From: Rhizobiales bacterium Ga0077556
GTDB lineage: Bacteria > Pseudomonadota > Alphaproteobacteria > Rhizobiales > Phreatobacteraceae
Assembly (NCBI GenBank): GCA_001464235.1
Contig: LNFH01000261.1
Location: 1-32,019, forward strand
Direction: 5' to 3'
DNA: 32,019 nt
Shown here: positions 27,190-32,019 of the stretch, piece after piece
Layout of the letters: each line of letters opens with the position of its first letter
How positions within the stretch are numbered: position 1 is the first letter of the stretch
Notes under the pieces: generated by a model
Databases searched by the model: none
Told to the model about the DNA's origin: nothing
What the model saw: only the letters and a program-made list of their open reading frames with translations
Program-made: the position numbers and the translations under genes

Positions 27190-27441
27190 ATGAACAGTCA
27201 GATCCGAGAGATCATCGCCCGGACGGTGGAACTGCCGGGCGGCGTGACTGACCTTGCCGACACCAGCGACCTGTACGAAGCCGGAATGACGTCCTTCGGG
27301 TCGGTTCAGCTGATGCTGGCGCTCGAGGAGGCCTTCGACGTCGAATTCCCCGAGCGCATGCTCAACCGCCGCCTCTTCTCCTCGATCGCCACGATCGACG
27401 CCGCCCTCAAGGAGCTGCGCTCCGAGAACGTCGGGGGCTGA
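27190..27441 (+). CDS. Acyl/aminoacyl carrier protein
   Basis: 83 aa, four-helix carrier protein. DLYEAGMTSFGSVQLMLALE is the phosphopantetheine site; Ser35 in GMTSF takes the place of the DSL serine. The next block EEAFDVEFPERMLN is typical helix II to III. The ATG at 27190 has AGGAG 9-10 bases upstream. It is the first of five tightly spaced genes; two bases separate it from the flavoprotein. Such small carriers next to a seryl-tRNA-synthetase-like ligase are the known acceptors of amino acid:[carrier protein] ligases, so it probably carries an aminoacyl rather than a fatty acyl group (inference from context). Confidence 0.9.
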   Translation: MNSQIREIIARTVELPGGVTDLADTSDLYEAGMTSFGSVQLMLALEEAFDVEFPERMLNRRLFSSIATIDAALKELRSENVGG

Positions 27442-27443
27442 TC

Positions 27444-28637
27444 ATGCTCGACAGGTCGGAATCCCGGAAGGTGCCGCAGGGCACCGACATTGCGGCCCGC
27501 GCCAAGCGGGTCGCCGAGATCGCCGCCGCCCATGCGGATGCGGTCGACCGTGACGGCCGCTTTCCCCGCGAGGCGGTCGACGCCATGCGTGAGGCGCGCC
27601 TTCTCGGCATGATGATTCCGACCCATCTCGGCGGCGACGGCGCCGACTTCGCCGAGATTGCCCAGGTCTGCACGGTGCTCGGCGGCGCCTGCTCGGCGTC
27701 CGGCATGGTCTTCGCCATGCACCAGATCAAGGTCTCCAGCCTCGTCCATCACGGGCTGGAGAGCGACTGGCACCGCGGCTTCATGCAGCGGCTGGCCGAA
27801 AAACAGCTTCTGCTCGGCTCGGCCACCACCGAGGCCGGCATCGGCGGCGACCTGCGCAACTCGATCTGCTCCATCGTGCCGGACGGCGACATGGTGCGGC
27901 TGGAGAAGGACGCGACCGTCATTTCCTACGGCCTCGATGCCGACGCGATCTTGGCCACCGCCCGCCGGGCGCCCGACGCCGCGTCCTCCGACCAGGTCAT
28001 GGTCGTGATCGAGAAGGACCAGGCGAGCCTCGTGCAGACCTCGGTCTGGGACACGCTCGGCATGCGCGGCACCACCTCGCACGGCTTCAAGCTGGCGGCG
28101 AGCGTGCCGGCGGCGCAGGTCTTCCCGAAGCCCTTCGCCGAGATCGCGGCGCAGTCCATGCTGGCGAGTTCGCACCTGTTCTGGGCCTCGCTGTGGTTCG
28201 GCATCGCCGGCTCGGCCCTGTCGAAGGCGCAGGCGAGCGTGCGCGCCGCAGCCCGCCGCATGCCCAACGCCATTCCGCCCGGCGCGCCGCGCCTCGCCGC
28301 CGCCGCCGCCGAACTCGCGGCGCTGAAGACCATCGTGCGCGACGGCATCGCCCGCTTCGAGACCGCCCGCCACGACGAGGACGCCATCAACTCCATGGCC
28401 TTCGCCGTCGCCATGAACGCGGTGAAGGTCGAGGCCTCGCGCCGCGCCGTCGCCATCGTCCAGGAGGCGCTGACCATCATCGGCATCCAGGGCTACAAGA
28501 ACGCCAACCCCTTCTCGGTCGGACGGCAGCTGCGCGACATCCTGTCGGCGCCGCTGATGATCGCCAACGACCGCATCCTCGCCAACACCGCGACCATGCT
28601 GCTCATGTCGCGTCTCGACACCGATCTGGAGGACTGA
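27444..28637 (+). CDS. Acyl-CoA dehydrogenase-like flavoprotein, presumably acting on carrier-bound substrate
   Basis: 397 aa with the acyl-CoA dehydrogenase fold: N-terminal helical part (MIPTHLGGDGADFAEIAQVC), middle barrel (LLLGSATTEAGIGGDLRNS, WDTLGMRGTTSHGFKL), and C-terminal helical part (EALTIIGIQGYKNANPFSVG, then RQLRDILSAPLMIANDRIL). Flavin-binding GIQGY and the RD pair are kept. The usual C-terminal catalytic glutamate (YEGT block) is not seen; that place reads SAPLMIANDR. Related flavoproteins in NRPS pathways oxidise aminoacyl groups on carrier proteins, for example prolyl to pyrrolyl. A similar reaction on the aminoacyl carrier is plausible here but unproven. Two bases after the carrier gene, three before the ligase. 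Confidence 0.85.
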   Translation: MLDRSESRKVPQGTDIAARAKRVAEIAAAHADAVDRDGRFPREAVDAMREARLLGMMIPTHLGGDGADFAEIAQVCTVLGGACSASGMVFAMHQIKVSSLVHHGLESDWHRGFMQRLAEKQLLLGSATTEAGIGGDLRNSICSIVPDGDMVRLEKDATVISYGLDADAILATARRAPDAASSDQVMVVIEKDQASLVQTSVWDTLGMRGTTSHGFKLAASVPAAQVFPKPFAEIAAQSMLASSHLFWASLWFGIAGSALSKAQASVRAAARRMPNAIPPGAPRLAAAAAELAALKTIVRDGIARFETARHDEDAINSMAFAVAMNAVKVEASRRAVAIVQEALTIIGIQGYKNANPFSVGRQLRDILSAPLMIANDRILANTATMLLMSRLDTDLED

Positions 28638-28640
28638 GAC

Positions 28641-29558
28641 ATGCTCGCCAAGACCGAGACCGCGACCTTCCTCGACGACCTCTTCGACAAGGGCCTGCTG
28701 ATCGAAACCGGCGTCGACGGCCTCTACGGCCGCTCGGGCCTCTTCGAGGCCATCGGCGACGGCTTCCAGGCGATGGTGACGCGCTACGGCGCCGCCGACG
28801 AGCCGGAGGTGGTGCGCTTCCCCCCCGCCATGGCCCGTACGGTCTTCGAGAAGTCCGGCTACATGAAGAGCTTCCCCCAGCTCGCCGGCACGGTGCACTG
28901 CTTCTGCGGCAGCCCCGCCGACCACGTCAGCCTGCTGCAGACCATCGAGCAGCAGGGCGACTGGACCGAGGGGCAGAAGGCCAGCGAGATCGTGCTGACG
29001 CCGGCGGCCTGCTACCCGCTCTACCCGACGGCGGCCAAGCGCGGCATGCTGCCCGAGGAGGGCCGCCTGTTCGACCTCATGTCCTACTGCTTCCGCCACG
29101 AGCCCTCGCAGGATCCGGCGCGCCAGCAGTTCTTCCGGATGCGCGAATTCGTCCGCATGGGCACGCCGGACCAGGTCACGGAGTTCCGCGCAACCTGGCT
29201 GGAGCGCGGCCAGGCGCTCATCGCCGAGCTCGGCCTGCCGTTCACGGTCGACGTCGCCAACGATCCCTTCTTCGGCCGCACGGGCAAGATGCTGGCGGTC
29301 AACCAGCGCGACCAGCGCCTGAAGTTCGAGCTCCTCATCGCCATCGAGAGCGAGGAGAAGCCGACCGCGTGCCTCTCCTTCAACTACCACCAGGACCATT
29401 TCGGCAAGACCTTCGGGCTCTCCACCCGGGGCGACGAGGTGGCGCACACGGCCTGCGTCGGCTTCGGCCACGAGCGGGTGATCCTGGCCCTGCTGAAGCA
29501 CTACGGCACCAATGTCAGCCGCTGGCCGGCTTCCGTCCGCCAGTCGCTGGGGCTGTGA
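28641..29558 (+). CDS. Amino acid:[carrier protein] ligase (seryl-tRNA-synthetase-like)
   Basis: 305 aa. A class II aminoacyl-tRNA synthetase catalytic core that lacks the N-terminal tRNA-binding coiled coil. In Bradyrhizobium and Agrobacterium such proteins activate glycine or alanine with ATP and load it onto the phosphopantetheine arm of a small carrier protein instead of tRNA. The zinc ligands expected for that family fit by spacing: Cys124 (PAACYPLYP), Glu169 ([10 protein letters not shown], motif 2) and Cys272 ([11 protein letters not shown]). Motif 3 is [17 protein letters not shown] ribosome-binding site at good distance. Which amino acid is used cannot be read off by eye. It sits between the flavoprotein and DUF1839 with gaps of three and four bases. 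Confidence 0.92.
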
Positions 29559-29562
29559 CGCC

Positions 29563-30576
29563 ATGGCCGCGGTGTTCCCCGATCTCTCGGCGGCGACCTA
29601 CCGGCGGCACGACCTGCACGACGCGGGCCGTGCCTGGCCGGAGACCAACTGCCACACGGATCTCTTCATCGAGCTCCTGGCGACGCTCGGCCGCGAGCCG
29701 GCCGTCGCCCTCGGCATGACGCTCGCCCAGGACTTCGAGGGCGACCAGTTCACCTTCTTCAAGATCCCCAACGGCGATCTCGACACCCTGTTCGGCCTCG
29801 ACCTGCAGGAACTGTCGATCTATCGCCCGCTGGTCGATCACCTGGAGGAGCAGGTCGCCCGCGGCCGCATCGTGCTCGTCGAGGTCGACGCGCATTTCCT
29901 GCCCGACACGCGGGGCGTGACCTACCGCACCGACCATTCCAAGACGACGATCGCGGTCAACGCCTTCGACCGCGCCGCCGCGCGCCTCGGCTACTTCCAC
30001 AATGCCGGCTACTTCGAGATGGAGGGCGAGGACGTCCACCAGCTCCTCGGCTTCGGGAGCGTCCCGACGCCGGTCCTGCCGCCCTATACGGAATTCGTGA
30101 AGGTCACGGGTCCCGGACTTTCCGGCCGGGCCCTGCGCGACGCCGCGCTCGCGCGCCTTTCCGCCCACTGGGCGCGCCGTCCCGAGCGCAATCCCGTCCT
30201 CGCCTATCGCGAGGCGCTGCAGCGCCATCTCGACTGGCTGGCCGGCGAGCCGCCCTGCTCCTTCCACCCCTATGCCTTCAACACCGCCCGCCAGTTCGGC
30301 GCCAACATCGCGCTGCTCGGCGACCATCTCGCCTGGCTCGCCGGTCAGGGTGTCGGCGGCCTCGAGCGGGCCATGGCCCTGTGCGAGGCGATGTCCGGCG
30401 GCATGAAGACGTTCCAGTTCCTGCTGGCGCGGGCTCTCGCGCGGAAGAAGACCGAGGCGCTCGCCGCCGCCCTCGACGAGACCGCCGGGCACTACGACGC
30501 GCTGATGGCCGAGCTCGCCGGCGCCCTGCGCTTTCCCATGGCCGAAACCCGGACCCTCGTTCGGGCCGCATCCTGA
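29563..30576 (+). CDS. DUF1839 family protein, possible aminoacyl transferase
   Basis: 337 aa. DUF1839 is of unknown function and known as a companion of carrier-protein ligases. Conserved blocks: PETNCHTDLFIELLATLG (Cys30), DFEGDQFTFFKIP, GRIVLVEVDAHFLPDT, TDHSKTTIAVNAFD (His125, Asp136) and LGYFHNAGYFEMEGEDV (Asn147). The order Cys near the N-terminus, then a PVLVxVD-like strand with LP, a His and an Asp/Asn resembles the BtrH-type papain-like acyltransferases, which move an acyl group from a carrier protein to an amine. The likeness is by eye and by architecture only. The C-terminal 130 residues are helical with no recognised motif. ATG at 29563; the frame is open further left inside the ligase gene. 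Confidence 0.85.
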   Translation: MAAVFPDLSAATYRRHDLHDAGRAWPETNCHTDLFIELLATLGREPAVALGMTLAQDFEGDQFTFFKIPNGDLDTLFGLDLQELSIYRPLVDHLEEQVARGRIVLVEVDAHFLPDTRGVTYRTDHSKTTIAVNAFDRAAARLGYFHNAGYFEMEGEDVHQLLGFGSVPTPVLPPYTEFVKVTGPGLSGRALRDAALARLSAHWARRPERNPVLAYREALQRHLDWLAGEPPCSFHPYAFNTARQFGANIALLGDHLAWLAGQGVGGLERAMALCEAMSGGMKTFQFLLARALARKKTEALAAALDETAGHYDALMAELAGALRFPMAETRTLVRAAS

Positions 30577-30583
30577 GGGGACG

Positions 30584-32019
30584 ATGGGTCCGGTGCGCAG
30601 CGATACGGACGAGCGGGTCGTCCCGCTCGACGCGGGCTGGATGCTGGCCGTCCTCGATCCCGGCGCCGCGGAGACGCCGGCGGATGCCGATGCGCGCGGC
30701 GACTGGATCGACGCCGTCGTGCCGGGCACGGCGGAAGCGGCACTGGTCGCCGCCGGCCGGCTGGCGCCGGGTGCTCCGTCCGGCCTTCACGACCGCGACG
30801 TCTGGTATCGTTGCACGGTCACGGCGGACGGTCCGGCGACGCTGCGCTTCGCAGGGCTCGCGGGCCCTGCCGACGTCTTCCTCGACGGCGCGCCGCTGCT
30901 CGCGGCGCCGTCGATGTTCCGGGGCTACAACGTCGACATCGCCGCCGCCGGTCGTCATCACCTCGCGATCCGCTTCCACGCGCTGAACCCGCTCCTCGCG
31001 ACCGCCAAGGGTCCGCGGCAGCGCTGGCGGCCGCAGATGATCCAGCCGGGCGCGCTCCGGCTCGTCCGCACCACGCCGCTCGGCCACATGCCCGGCTGGT
31101 CGCCCGGCGTCGCCGTCGTCGGACCTTGGCAACCCGCCGACCTCGTCCTGCGCGGTGGCGGGCCTCGCCTCGAAGACCTCTCGCTCTCCGCCCGCCTCGC
31201 GGCGGGCGACGGCATTCTCGACGTCGCCGTCCGTTTCGACAGCCCACCGGACGTGCCGGTCGAGGTGCTGTGCGGCGGACAGGCACAGGCGCTCCATCCC
31301 GGTGCCGACGGCGCCCATGCCGGCCGCATGGTGCTGCCGGGCATCGCGCCCTGGTGGCCGCACACCCATGGCGAGCCGGCGCTGCACGGCGTGCACCTGC
31401 GCATCGGCGACCGCCTCATCGACTGCGGCCGGGTCGGCTTCCGCTCCCTGACCCTCGACCGCGGCGCCGACGGCAAGGGCTTCGGCCTCGTCGTCAACGG
31501 CGTGCCCGTCTTCTGCCGCGGCGCCTCGTGGATGCCGCCGGATCCCGCATCGCCCGGCGGCGCCGATCCGCGGCCGCTTCTGGCGCTTGCCCGCGAGGCG
31601 GGAATGACCATGATCCGCCTCTCCGGCACCGTCACGCCCGAGAGCCGCGCCTTCCACGACGCCTGCGACGAACTCGGCATCCTCGTCTGGCACGACCTGC
31701 CCTTCGCCAACTTCGACTATCCCGGCGACGACGCCTTCCGCGCCGCGGCCGAGGCGGAGGCGCGCGCGCTGCTCGGCCGGCTGCAGGGCTCGCCGTCCCT
31801 GGCGGTCGTCTGCGGCGGCAGCGAGATCGCCCAGCAGGCGACCATGCTCGGCCTGACGCCGGACCAGGCGGCCCTGCCGTTGTTCGACGAGGCCCTGGCG
31901 GCGGTGGCGGCCGAGGTCGCCCCGCAGGCCGTCTACGTGCCCCATTCGCCGTGGGGTGGCGCCCTGCCCTTCGTCACCGACGAAGGCGTCACCCACTATT
32001 TCGGCGTCGGCGCCTATTG
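30584..32019 (+). CDS. Glycoside hydrolase family 2 / beta-mannosidase-like protein (3' end outside window)
   Basis: 478 codons are present and the frame runs off the window edge. Residues 1-165 form the sugar-binding jelly roll (DVWYRCTV, FAGLAGPADVFLDG), about 180-290 the immunoglobulin-like domain, and from about 295 the TIM barrel opens with GLVVNGVPVFCRGASWMPPD. FHDACDELGILVWHDLPFAN and YPGDDAF follow the GH2 mannosidase pattern. The acid/base motif, normally GNNE, reads CGGSEIAQ (Glu414): Glu is kept but the preceding Asn is Ser, so activity is doubtful. The nucleophile lies beyond the edge. No signal peptide, so it is probably cytosolic. Seven bases after DUF1839, with GAGGGGA before the ATG. 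Confidence 0.85.
   Translation, partial: MGPVRSDTDERVVPLDAGWMLAVLDPGAAETPADADARGDWIDAVVPGTAEAALVAAGRLAPGAPSGLHDRDVWYRCTVTADGPATLRFAGLAGPADVFLDGAPLLAAPSMFRGYNVDIAAAGRHHLAIRFHALNPLLATAKGPRQRWRPQMIQPGALRLVRTTPLGHMPGWSPGVAVVGPWQPADLVLRGGGPRLEDLSLSARLAAGDGILDVAVRFDSPPDVPVEVLCGGQAQALHPGADGAHAGRMVLPGIAPWWPHTHGEPALHGVHLRIGDRLIDCGRVGFRSLTLDRGADGKGFGLVVNGVPVFCRGASWMPPDPASPGGADPRPLLALAREAGMTMIRLSGTVTPESRAFHDACDELGILVWHDLPFANFDYPGDDAFRAAAEAEARALLGRLQGSPSLAVVCGGSEIAQQATMLGLTPDQAALPLFDEALAAVAAEVAPQAVYVPHSPWGGALPFVTDEGVTHYFGVGAY

Follow-up and report, generated by a model that had tools for sequence, protein, structure and literature searches.

We examined a five-gene operon at the 3' end of contig LNFH01000261.1 (C261) from Rhizobiales bacterium Ga0077556; the window, i.e. 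the whole stretch of DNA that was analysed, was this entire 32,019-base contig. The coordinates of the open reading frames (ORFs) confirmed what an earlier note had described from the sequence of the window, namely five genes on the + strand separated by intergenic gaps of 2, 3, 4 and 7 bases, and family scans bore out the five gene identities given there. The first gene (27190..27441, +, starting at the ATG at 27190) encoded an 83 aa carrier protein with a phosphopantetheine site at Ser35 that matched NF005480 and PF00550 (PP-binding). It was followed by a flavoprotein gene (27444..28637, +, 397 aa), whose acyl-CoA dehydrogenase fold was recognised from PF02771 and PF00441, residue columns, and model and fold comparisons. 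The third gene (28641..29558, +, 305 aa) encoded an NF005479-type amino acid--[carrier protein] ligase with a class II synthetase core and the residues Cys124, Glu169 and Cys272. The fourth gene (29563..30576, +, 337 aa) encoded a DUF1839 protein (PF08893, 370 bits) that, according to its fold model, was a predicted papain-like carrier-dependent amide synthase with Cys30 and His146. Its frame was also open from an ATG at 29512, a start that overlaps the ligase, and the ATG at 29563 was taken as in the earlier note. The last gene (30584..32019, +) was the 5' part of a beta-mannosidase-like GH2 glycoside hydrolase gene with PF22666 (the GH2 N-terminal domain) and an SE motif replacing NE. It was truncated by the end of C261, and the remainder was located on contig C122 of the same genome (L121:1-1125), the first 98 bases of C122 being the last 98 bases of the window.

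To collect relatives of these genes, we searched genomes, named contigs and plasmids using profiles built up from the window genes. DUF1839 genes were merged only when their matched DNA was identical, so that close relatives counted separately; this resulted in 76 distinct DUF1839 genes, with loci L121 to L164 outside the count. In 71 of the 76, the carrier, flavoprotein, ligase, DUF1839 and GH2 genes lay in this order on one strand, which argues that the arrangement was not due to chance. When at least 3.5 kb was required on both flanks, 68 of 71 DUF1839 genes were found in the full five-gene order. Of the five exceptions, three were second copies of DUF1839, found in Cupriavidus metallidurans CH34 and in two genomes that share a genus. 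The fourth locus (L090) ran into a contig end, and at the fifth (L108) GH2 was not found among the ORFs listed after DUF1839 in the stretch examined. Thus, GH2 and the flavoprotein, whose absence from most homologous loci would have spoken against the pathway proposed in the earlier note, were found to travel with the other three genes. The unit was uncommon: in an even sample of Pseudomonadota, DUF1839 was present in 16/398 genomes, while in the class and in the order it was found in 5/385 and 48/297 genomes, respectively. The same 16 genomes had a GH2 match of at least 684 bits (the next genome reached 296 bits), and all of them were among the 28/398 genomes with a ligase above the cut-off. 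At one locus, DUF1839 and GH2 were separated by two inserted genes, one of the 2-thiouracil desulfurase family and one for a fumarase (L080:10641-12688). The DUF1839 gene of L100 and the GH2 gene of L088 were each matched as two pieces and were therefore broken or mis-sequenced. Some gene calls in the surrounding loci came from a G+C heuristic that sometimes chose the wrong frame, and the residue counts given below were made on matches covering >85% of the model.

The ligase scored 485.5 bits against NF005479 (cut-off 357). The tRNA-synt_2b core (PF00587) was matched with 29.4 bits (cut-off 29.3) and was the sole family at E <= 0.01, no tRNA-binding domain being present in the 305 aa; the carrier gene was located two genes upstream. 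Homology thus supported its assignment as an amino acid--[carrier protein] ligase, the tRNA-free synthetase core recognised in the earlier note, and a plain lipid or fatty-acid operon was rejected because the ligase was of the amino-acid type according to NF005479. Cys124, Glu169 and Cys272, the putative zinc ligands, were invariant in 88/88 ligases. The earlier note had given the same ligand spacing for Bll0957, the Bradyrhizobium amino acid--[carrier protein] ligase 1 (3mey/4h2s). This proved correct: the window ligase matched the Bll0957 chains with 329.8 and 321.9 bits, and since the alignment was gapless from residue 111 on, the spacings of 45 and 103 residues were the same in both proteins. 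The cargo of such ligases is reportedly glycine or alanine. For the wider ligase group, Gly, Ala and Ser are listed in another paper (PMC9437257).

The likeness to Bll0957 extended to the ligase family and not to the genomic setting. The window carrier (102.3 bits against NF005480, cut-off 72; Ser35 invariant in 82/82 carriers) had its nearest characterised relatives in the Agrobacterium type, 4h2w_C (79.5 bits) and 2jq4 'Atu2571' (79.4 bits), whereas the carrier of the Bll0957 entries, 4h2s_C, reached only 24.4 bits. Identity of the 4h2w carrier was 83% with the carrier at L065, a five-gene locus, and 54% with the window carrier. Additionally, we found 13 loci that had the flavoprotein and ligase genes without DUF1839 or GH2 in the stretch examined, and in 11 of the 13 the carrier was divergent. 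In a quick ligase tree, these three-gene ligases were located on one side of a branch with support 99, while the 73 five-gene ligases were grouped with support 78, below the tool's 95 mark. The crystallised Bll0957 was 94.5-96.2% identical to six three-gene ligases (L055, L111-L115) but 50% to the window ligase, and its near-identical relatives had a divergent carrier and neither DUF1839 nor GH2 in 20 kb. The idea that Bll0957 itself belonged to the same operon was therefore dropped, and the Agrobacterium pair was the right comparison for the window, since the carrier was nearest to 4h2w and 2jq4 and the relatives of Bll0957 were in three-gene loci.

At three-gene loci of the Bll0957 type (L113:5505-7502, L055), genes of the IF-2B and phosphorylase families adjoined the carrier; on visual inspection, they looked like the methionine salvage genes mtnA and mtnP. 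On a Priestia megaterium plasmid (L061), AcpS, carrier, flavoprotein and ligase genes were located beside an exporter, an ATP-grasp protein, an alpha/beta hydrolase, an alanine permease, an alanine racemase and a D-Ala-D-Ala ligase; this cluster perhaps makes an alanine-like antimetabolite with self-protection.

The flavoprotein matched the N and C domains of acyl-CoA dehydrogenases above the cut-offs and the middle domain below its cut-off. The position of the catalytic Glu (373) was occupied by Ile or Val in 87/87 flavoproteins, with no acidic residue, and the alternative base position (243) by Ser, Ala, Thr or Cys, again in 87/87. These columns were placed by gapless extension and by the landmarks MCAD Glu376 and IVD Glu254, which mark the dehydrogenase base positions; on this placement, the catalytic Glu was missing at both. 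His93, Ser126, His244, Asn375 and Arg377 were invariant in the 87 rows. The comparison set of flavin monooxygenases with the acyl-CoA dehydrogenase fold consisted of DszC, KijD3 and DnmZ. The profile matched nitrososynthases, and its matches to the amino-sugar N-oxygenases DnmZ (8.4e-21) and KijD3 (1.4e-17) were at a level with dehydrogenases. We propose that this protein may oxidise or oxygenate the aminoacyl group bound to the carrier. Because the dehydrogenase base was missing and glycine, the reported cargo of this ligase family, has no beta carbon, we would expect oxidation of the nitrogen or the C-N bond rather than formation of a C=C bond.

We also considered whether the flavoprotein could be an ordinary desaturase that acts on the acyl group held by the carrier (for example, turning alanyl into dehydroalanyl), similar to the prolyl- and cysteinyl-carrier dehydrogenases. 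Such enzymes shared the fold: ColB1, which dehydrogenates carrier-bound cysteine, was among the near-tied rows (Z 36.9), and the prolyl-ACP dehydrogenase 4irn was matched as well. The desaturase was set aside as the leading reading because no acidic residue was found at position 373 or 243 in any of the 87 rows, as far as the landmarks and gapless extension place these columns, and because DnmZ and KijD3 ranked alongside the dehydrogenases. We retained it as a rival to N or C-N oxidation, although we regard it as rather unlikely.

The model of the DUF1839 protein, built from 15 sequences, had a mean pLDDT (predicted local distance difference test) of 86.3. A Foldseek search with this model gave 19 matches at E <= 0.001, and 19/19 were chains of CcbD, CtaG or AziU2/U3. 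With a second aligner, these proteins reached Z 16.6-19.1 over 272-292 of the 337 residues at 8-15% identity, the next row having 8.1, and the match took in the papain-like domain together with the helical second half. Thus, the modelled fold strongly supports the suggestion of the earlier note that DUF1839 may act as a transferase. According to a paper on CcbD (PMC12945683), carrier-bound proline is loaded on the Cys of this enzyme and then passed to the amino group of a sugar. In DUF1839, Cys30 was found in 72/75 proteins, and His125, His146 and Asp157 in 75/75. His146 was chosen as the catalytic His from its spacing and from the C(T/S)H triad given in a 2023 survey (PMC10318531): Cys30 and His146 were 116 residues apart, in comparison to 117 for Cys11 and His128 of CtaG and 112 for Cys19 and His131 of CcbD. 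CcbD is described as contacting its carrier via arginines 312, 316 and 324; Arg290 (75/75) and Arg294 (68/75) of DUF1839 were at a similar distance from the end, a likeness judged by eye.

In three genomes, C. metallidurans CH34 and two that belong to one genus, the DUF1839 copy within the operon lacked Cys30. Each of these genomes had a second DUF1839 gene that retained the Cys and was 42-45% identical to the first, located 1.3 kb past GH2 in two genomes and on another contig in the third (L062:14949-20648; L106:7937-13694; L104 and L107). We read this pattern as pressure to retain one working DUF1839, and the copy without Cys may be a partner subunit.

A peptidase was also considered for DUF1839. 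If the protein were a hydrolase (a thioesterase or peptidase) that frees the modified amino acid, the product would be a free oxidised amino acid and GH2 would act independently. Papain-like proteins are mostly peptidases, and the lower-ranked folds included C39-like and papain-like proteases; the 2023 survey also places DUF1839 among papain-like proteinases, with a guessed role in glycan processing, and its text mentions neither CcbD, LmbD nor AziU3. However, the protease rows had Z <=7.3 over about half of DUF1839, well behind the CcbD, CtaG and AziU2/U3 chains that covered the helical second half as well, and the two conserved arginines resembled, by eye, the carrier contacts of CcbD. The peptidase was therefore set aside in favour of an amide-forming transferase, and as a retained rival the hydrolase seems very improbable to us.

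The full homologue of the GH2 protein had beta-mannosidases as its nearest solved sequences (2je8, 145 bits). In the numbering of the L044 homologue, the catalytic Glu414 and Glu495 were present in 69/69 proteins, and Ser413 in 68/69. The SE motif thus replaced NE before the acid/base Glu in 68/69, and this Ser-Glu was within the window's own piece of GH2. The N-terminus in the window had no strong hydrophobic stretch on a simple scale, which is not a signal-peptide program. The protein thus had the SE motif given for subfamily GH2_14. PMC12243196 defines this subfamily by the SE motif, reports the fewest signal peptides among subfamilies, and gives a Gly replacing a conserved active-site His as a further trait; in a sister subfamily, it associates a Ser in this position with amination at C2. 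Two members are described there as having slow activity on p-nitrophenyl (pNP)-beta-D-galactoside and none on mannobiose or mannotriose. An ordinary beta-mannosidase was rejected since SE replaced NE and the GH2_14 enzymes were reported as inactive on mannobiose and mannotriose.

The surroundings of the operon pointed to exopolysaccharide in a part of the loci. On C122, the GH2 remainder was followed by the gene of a double alpha/beta hydrolase and that of a sugar-1-phosphate transferase. Further along the contig were genes for a glycosyltransferase-like protein (just below the cut-off), Wzy/O-antigen ligase, polysaccharide deacetylase, the chain-length protein Wzz, a WecG/TagA-type transferase (GT26) and a GH10 protein; judging by these families, it is an exopolysaccharide region. 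At L106, a sugar-phosphate transferase preceded the five genes, and these were followed in turn by a Crp-type regulator, the second DUF1839, a ManC-like enzyme, Wzc and the hydrolase. Of eight exopolysaccharide markers, one or more were present in 11/35 operon stretches versus 1/35 controls (Fisher p 0.003). The controls were taken on the same contigs 50 or 60 kb away, and the Phreatobacter loci were outside the test. The marker seeds were single proteins from L121, L106 and L051, two seed loci with their controls being excluded (35/37 pairs), and since each seed was a single sequence the count was a lower bound. The glycan acceptor suggested in the earlier note thus gained moderate support from these counts and from the retained catalytic pair of GH2. 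However, because markers were found at some loci and were absent near some plasmid copies, the acceptor may be a polymer, a precursor or a small molecule. On the other side of the operon, a divergent membrane sensor with a GGDEF domain (PF20973, PF00990; 25553-27028, - strand) was located ~160 bases upstream of the carrier gene, and three further Phreatobacter-type genomes (L026/L097, L024/L095, L044) had a relative of it at this position. A cyclic-di-GMP link to exopolysaccharide is possible.

The double hydrolase behaved as a sixth gene of the locus (L121:1125-2783 and relatives) and was found in 22/35 operon stretches versus 0/35 controls. It consisted of two alpha/beta-hydrolase domains in tandem. 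At the nucleophile place, domain 2 had Cys (GxCxG) in 47/47 proteins, while domain 1 had Gly (25) or Arg (22) and never Ser, so a dead domain joined to a Cys-nucleophile acyltransferase is possible from these residues. At two Rhizobium-type loci (L051:15373-18696 and L039), a Wzx-type flippase was fused to this double hydrolase.

Taken together, these results partly supported the pathway interpretation of the earlier note, and we consider it somewhat probable that the operon is a carrier-protein route by which a small amino acid, probably in oxidised form, is joined to an amino sugar as an amide. The ligase would adenylate a small amino acid and charge the phosphopantetheine at Ser35 of the carrier, as its close relatives of known activity strongly suggest. 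The flavoprotein would then act on the carrier-bound aminoacyl group, by N-hydroxylation or imine formation. Going by its modelled fold, DUF1839 would receive the acyl group on Cys30 and transfer it to an amine, in the way that CcbD couples proline to an amino sugar. The amine would be that of an amino sugar in a surface glycan or in its precursor, as suggested by the CcbD precedent, by the exopolysaccharide genes at some loci and by Ser in place of Asn beside the acid/base of GH2. Finally, GH2, having no evident signal peptide, may cut a beta-glycoside of the glycan or an intermediate in the cytoplasm. A more specific version is speculative and rather unlikely: an N-oxidised or imino glycyl carrier and the CcbD-fold DUF1839 could form an amide on the amino sugar of an exopolysaccharide repeat unit, an undescribed substituent, with GH2_14 as a dedicated glycosidase and the Cys-nucleophile double hydrolase adding a second acylation.

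Several observations weigh against the amino-sugar amide. The fold of the flavoprotein did not separate dehydrogenase from monooxygenase, the two being tied at Z 36-38. For DUF1839, identity in the structural alignments was 8-15%, and neither the 15-row profile (E <= 10) nor a sequence search of the PDB gave a sequence-level link to CcbD, CtaG or AziU2/U3. CtaG and AziU2/U3 act on substrates different from those of CcbD, and because the acceptor of CtaG is a diamine, the fold alone leaves the sugar acceptor unfixed. Slow hydrolysis of pNP-beta-D-galactoside, the activity reported for GH2_14, does not itself suggest an amino sugar, and a cytoplasmic glycosidase in a synthesis operon was unexplained. 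In addition, 24/35 loci showed none of the eight markers, Wzz-like genes were also present in 4/13 three-gene loci, and several plasmid copies of the five genes had no glycan genes nearby in the stretch examined.

Instead of decorating a polymer, the operon could make a small metabolite that diffuses freely, either an aminoacyl glycoside or an aminoglycoside-like compound with a signalling, siderophore-like or toxic role; the chemistry would be the same, and the acceptor and fate would differ. The nearest folds of DUF1839 all came from small-molecule pathways (celesticetin, closthioamide and azinomycin). One of the plasmids without glycan genes near the five genes was typed conjugative, other copies lay beside transporters, and the three-gene version occurred in the Priestia plasmid cluster with its exporter, ATP-grasp protein, alanine racemase and D-Ala-D-Ala ligase. 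Polymer decoration, on the other hand, was favoured by the marker counts over the controls, by Wzx fused to the hydrolase in Rhizobium-type loci, and by complete polymer-type clusters in the window genome and at L106. We regard a diffusible product as rather unlikely.

If the specific version of the glycan route were true, a lincosamide-type coupling step would be built into surface-glycan synthesis, and GH2_14, so far without a role, would gain one. If the sugar-amide route in general were true, rhizobia, Azospirillum, Cupriavidus, Mycetohabitans and others would carry a movable five-gene kit for placing an unusual amino acid on a sugar, and this kit could bear on plant and host contact. Structures of amino acid--[carrier protein] ligases have appeared since 2010, and so far as the literature was searched no product was found for them. 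In the proposed route, each gene gains a testable job: solved relatives suggest a mechanism for DUF1839, GH2_14 is placed in a biological context, and the flavoprotein is predicted to oxidise N or C-N instead of desaturating.

The idea itself had been predicted. Iyer and colleagues reported this gene neighbourhood of the ligase in a note in proof (2010, PMC2922099). They predicted that a redox enzyme first modifies the amino acid, probably by monooxygenation, and that the ORF Atu2574 then links it as an amide to an amino group on a sugar of the cell surface. The proposal of the earlier note was therefore prior art as a prediction. The Agrobacterium Atu2571-Atu2574 cluster, as given in that note in proof, has a carrier, a flavin redox gene, a synthetase-like ligase, the predicted amide-forming ORF, a glycosidase and liposaccharide genes. 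We found no difference in kind from the window operon, whose carrier matched 2jq4 'Atu2571' as given above, and gene order points to Atu2574 as a DUF1839 protein. New in our analysis were the CcbD/CtaG/AziU2-U3 fold for DUF1839, the Cys loss with a second copy, the missing dehydrogenase base, the GH2_14 motif, the linkage counts and the hydrolase features. Literature searches for the exopolysaccharide link and for an amino acid carrier protein ligase found no report; apart from the note in proof, the Atu gene names turned up in a gene listing of a transcriptome study.

In comparison to the GH2_14 enzymes of PMC12243196, the window GH2 had the same SE for NE, catalytic Glu pair, lack of an evident signal peptide and proteobacterial origin; the passages concerned differ in reporting pNP-beta-galactosidase activity and in not mentioning the operon. 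The sixth gene resembled a tandem of exosortase-A-associated hydrolases 1 and 2 but scored under both curated cut-offs (TIGR03100, 124.5 against 168.45; TIGR03101, 82.7 against 202.75). Among the systems of this fold, CtaG of closthioamide (Z 16.6-18.3) and AziU2/U3 of azinomycin (Z 17.4-17.8) shared the fold of DUF1839 and differed by their low identity of 8-11% and 14-15%, respectively. The lincosamide amide synthases CcbD and LmbD (7yn1, 9dkr) were also distant (12-13% identity), and their donors are prolines on a nonribosomal peptide synthetase-type carrier, with a thiooctose as the acceptor. On the other hand, they shared with DUF1839 the fold over 286-292 residues (Z 18.6-19.1), the spacing of the Cys-His dyad and a carrier-bound amino acid as the donor.

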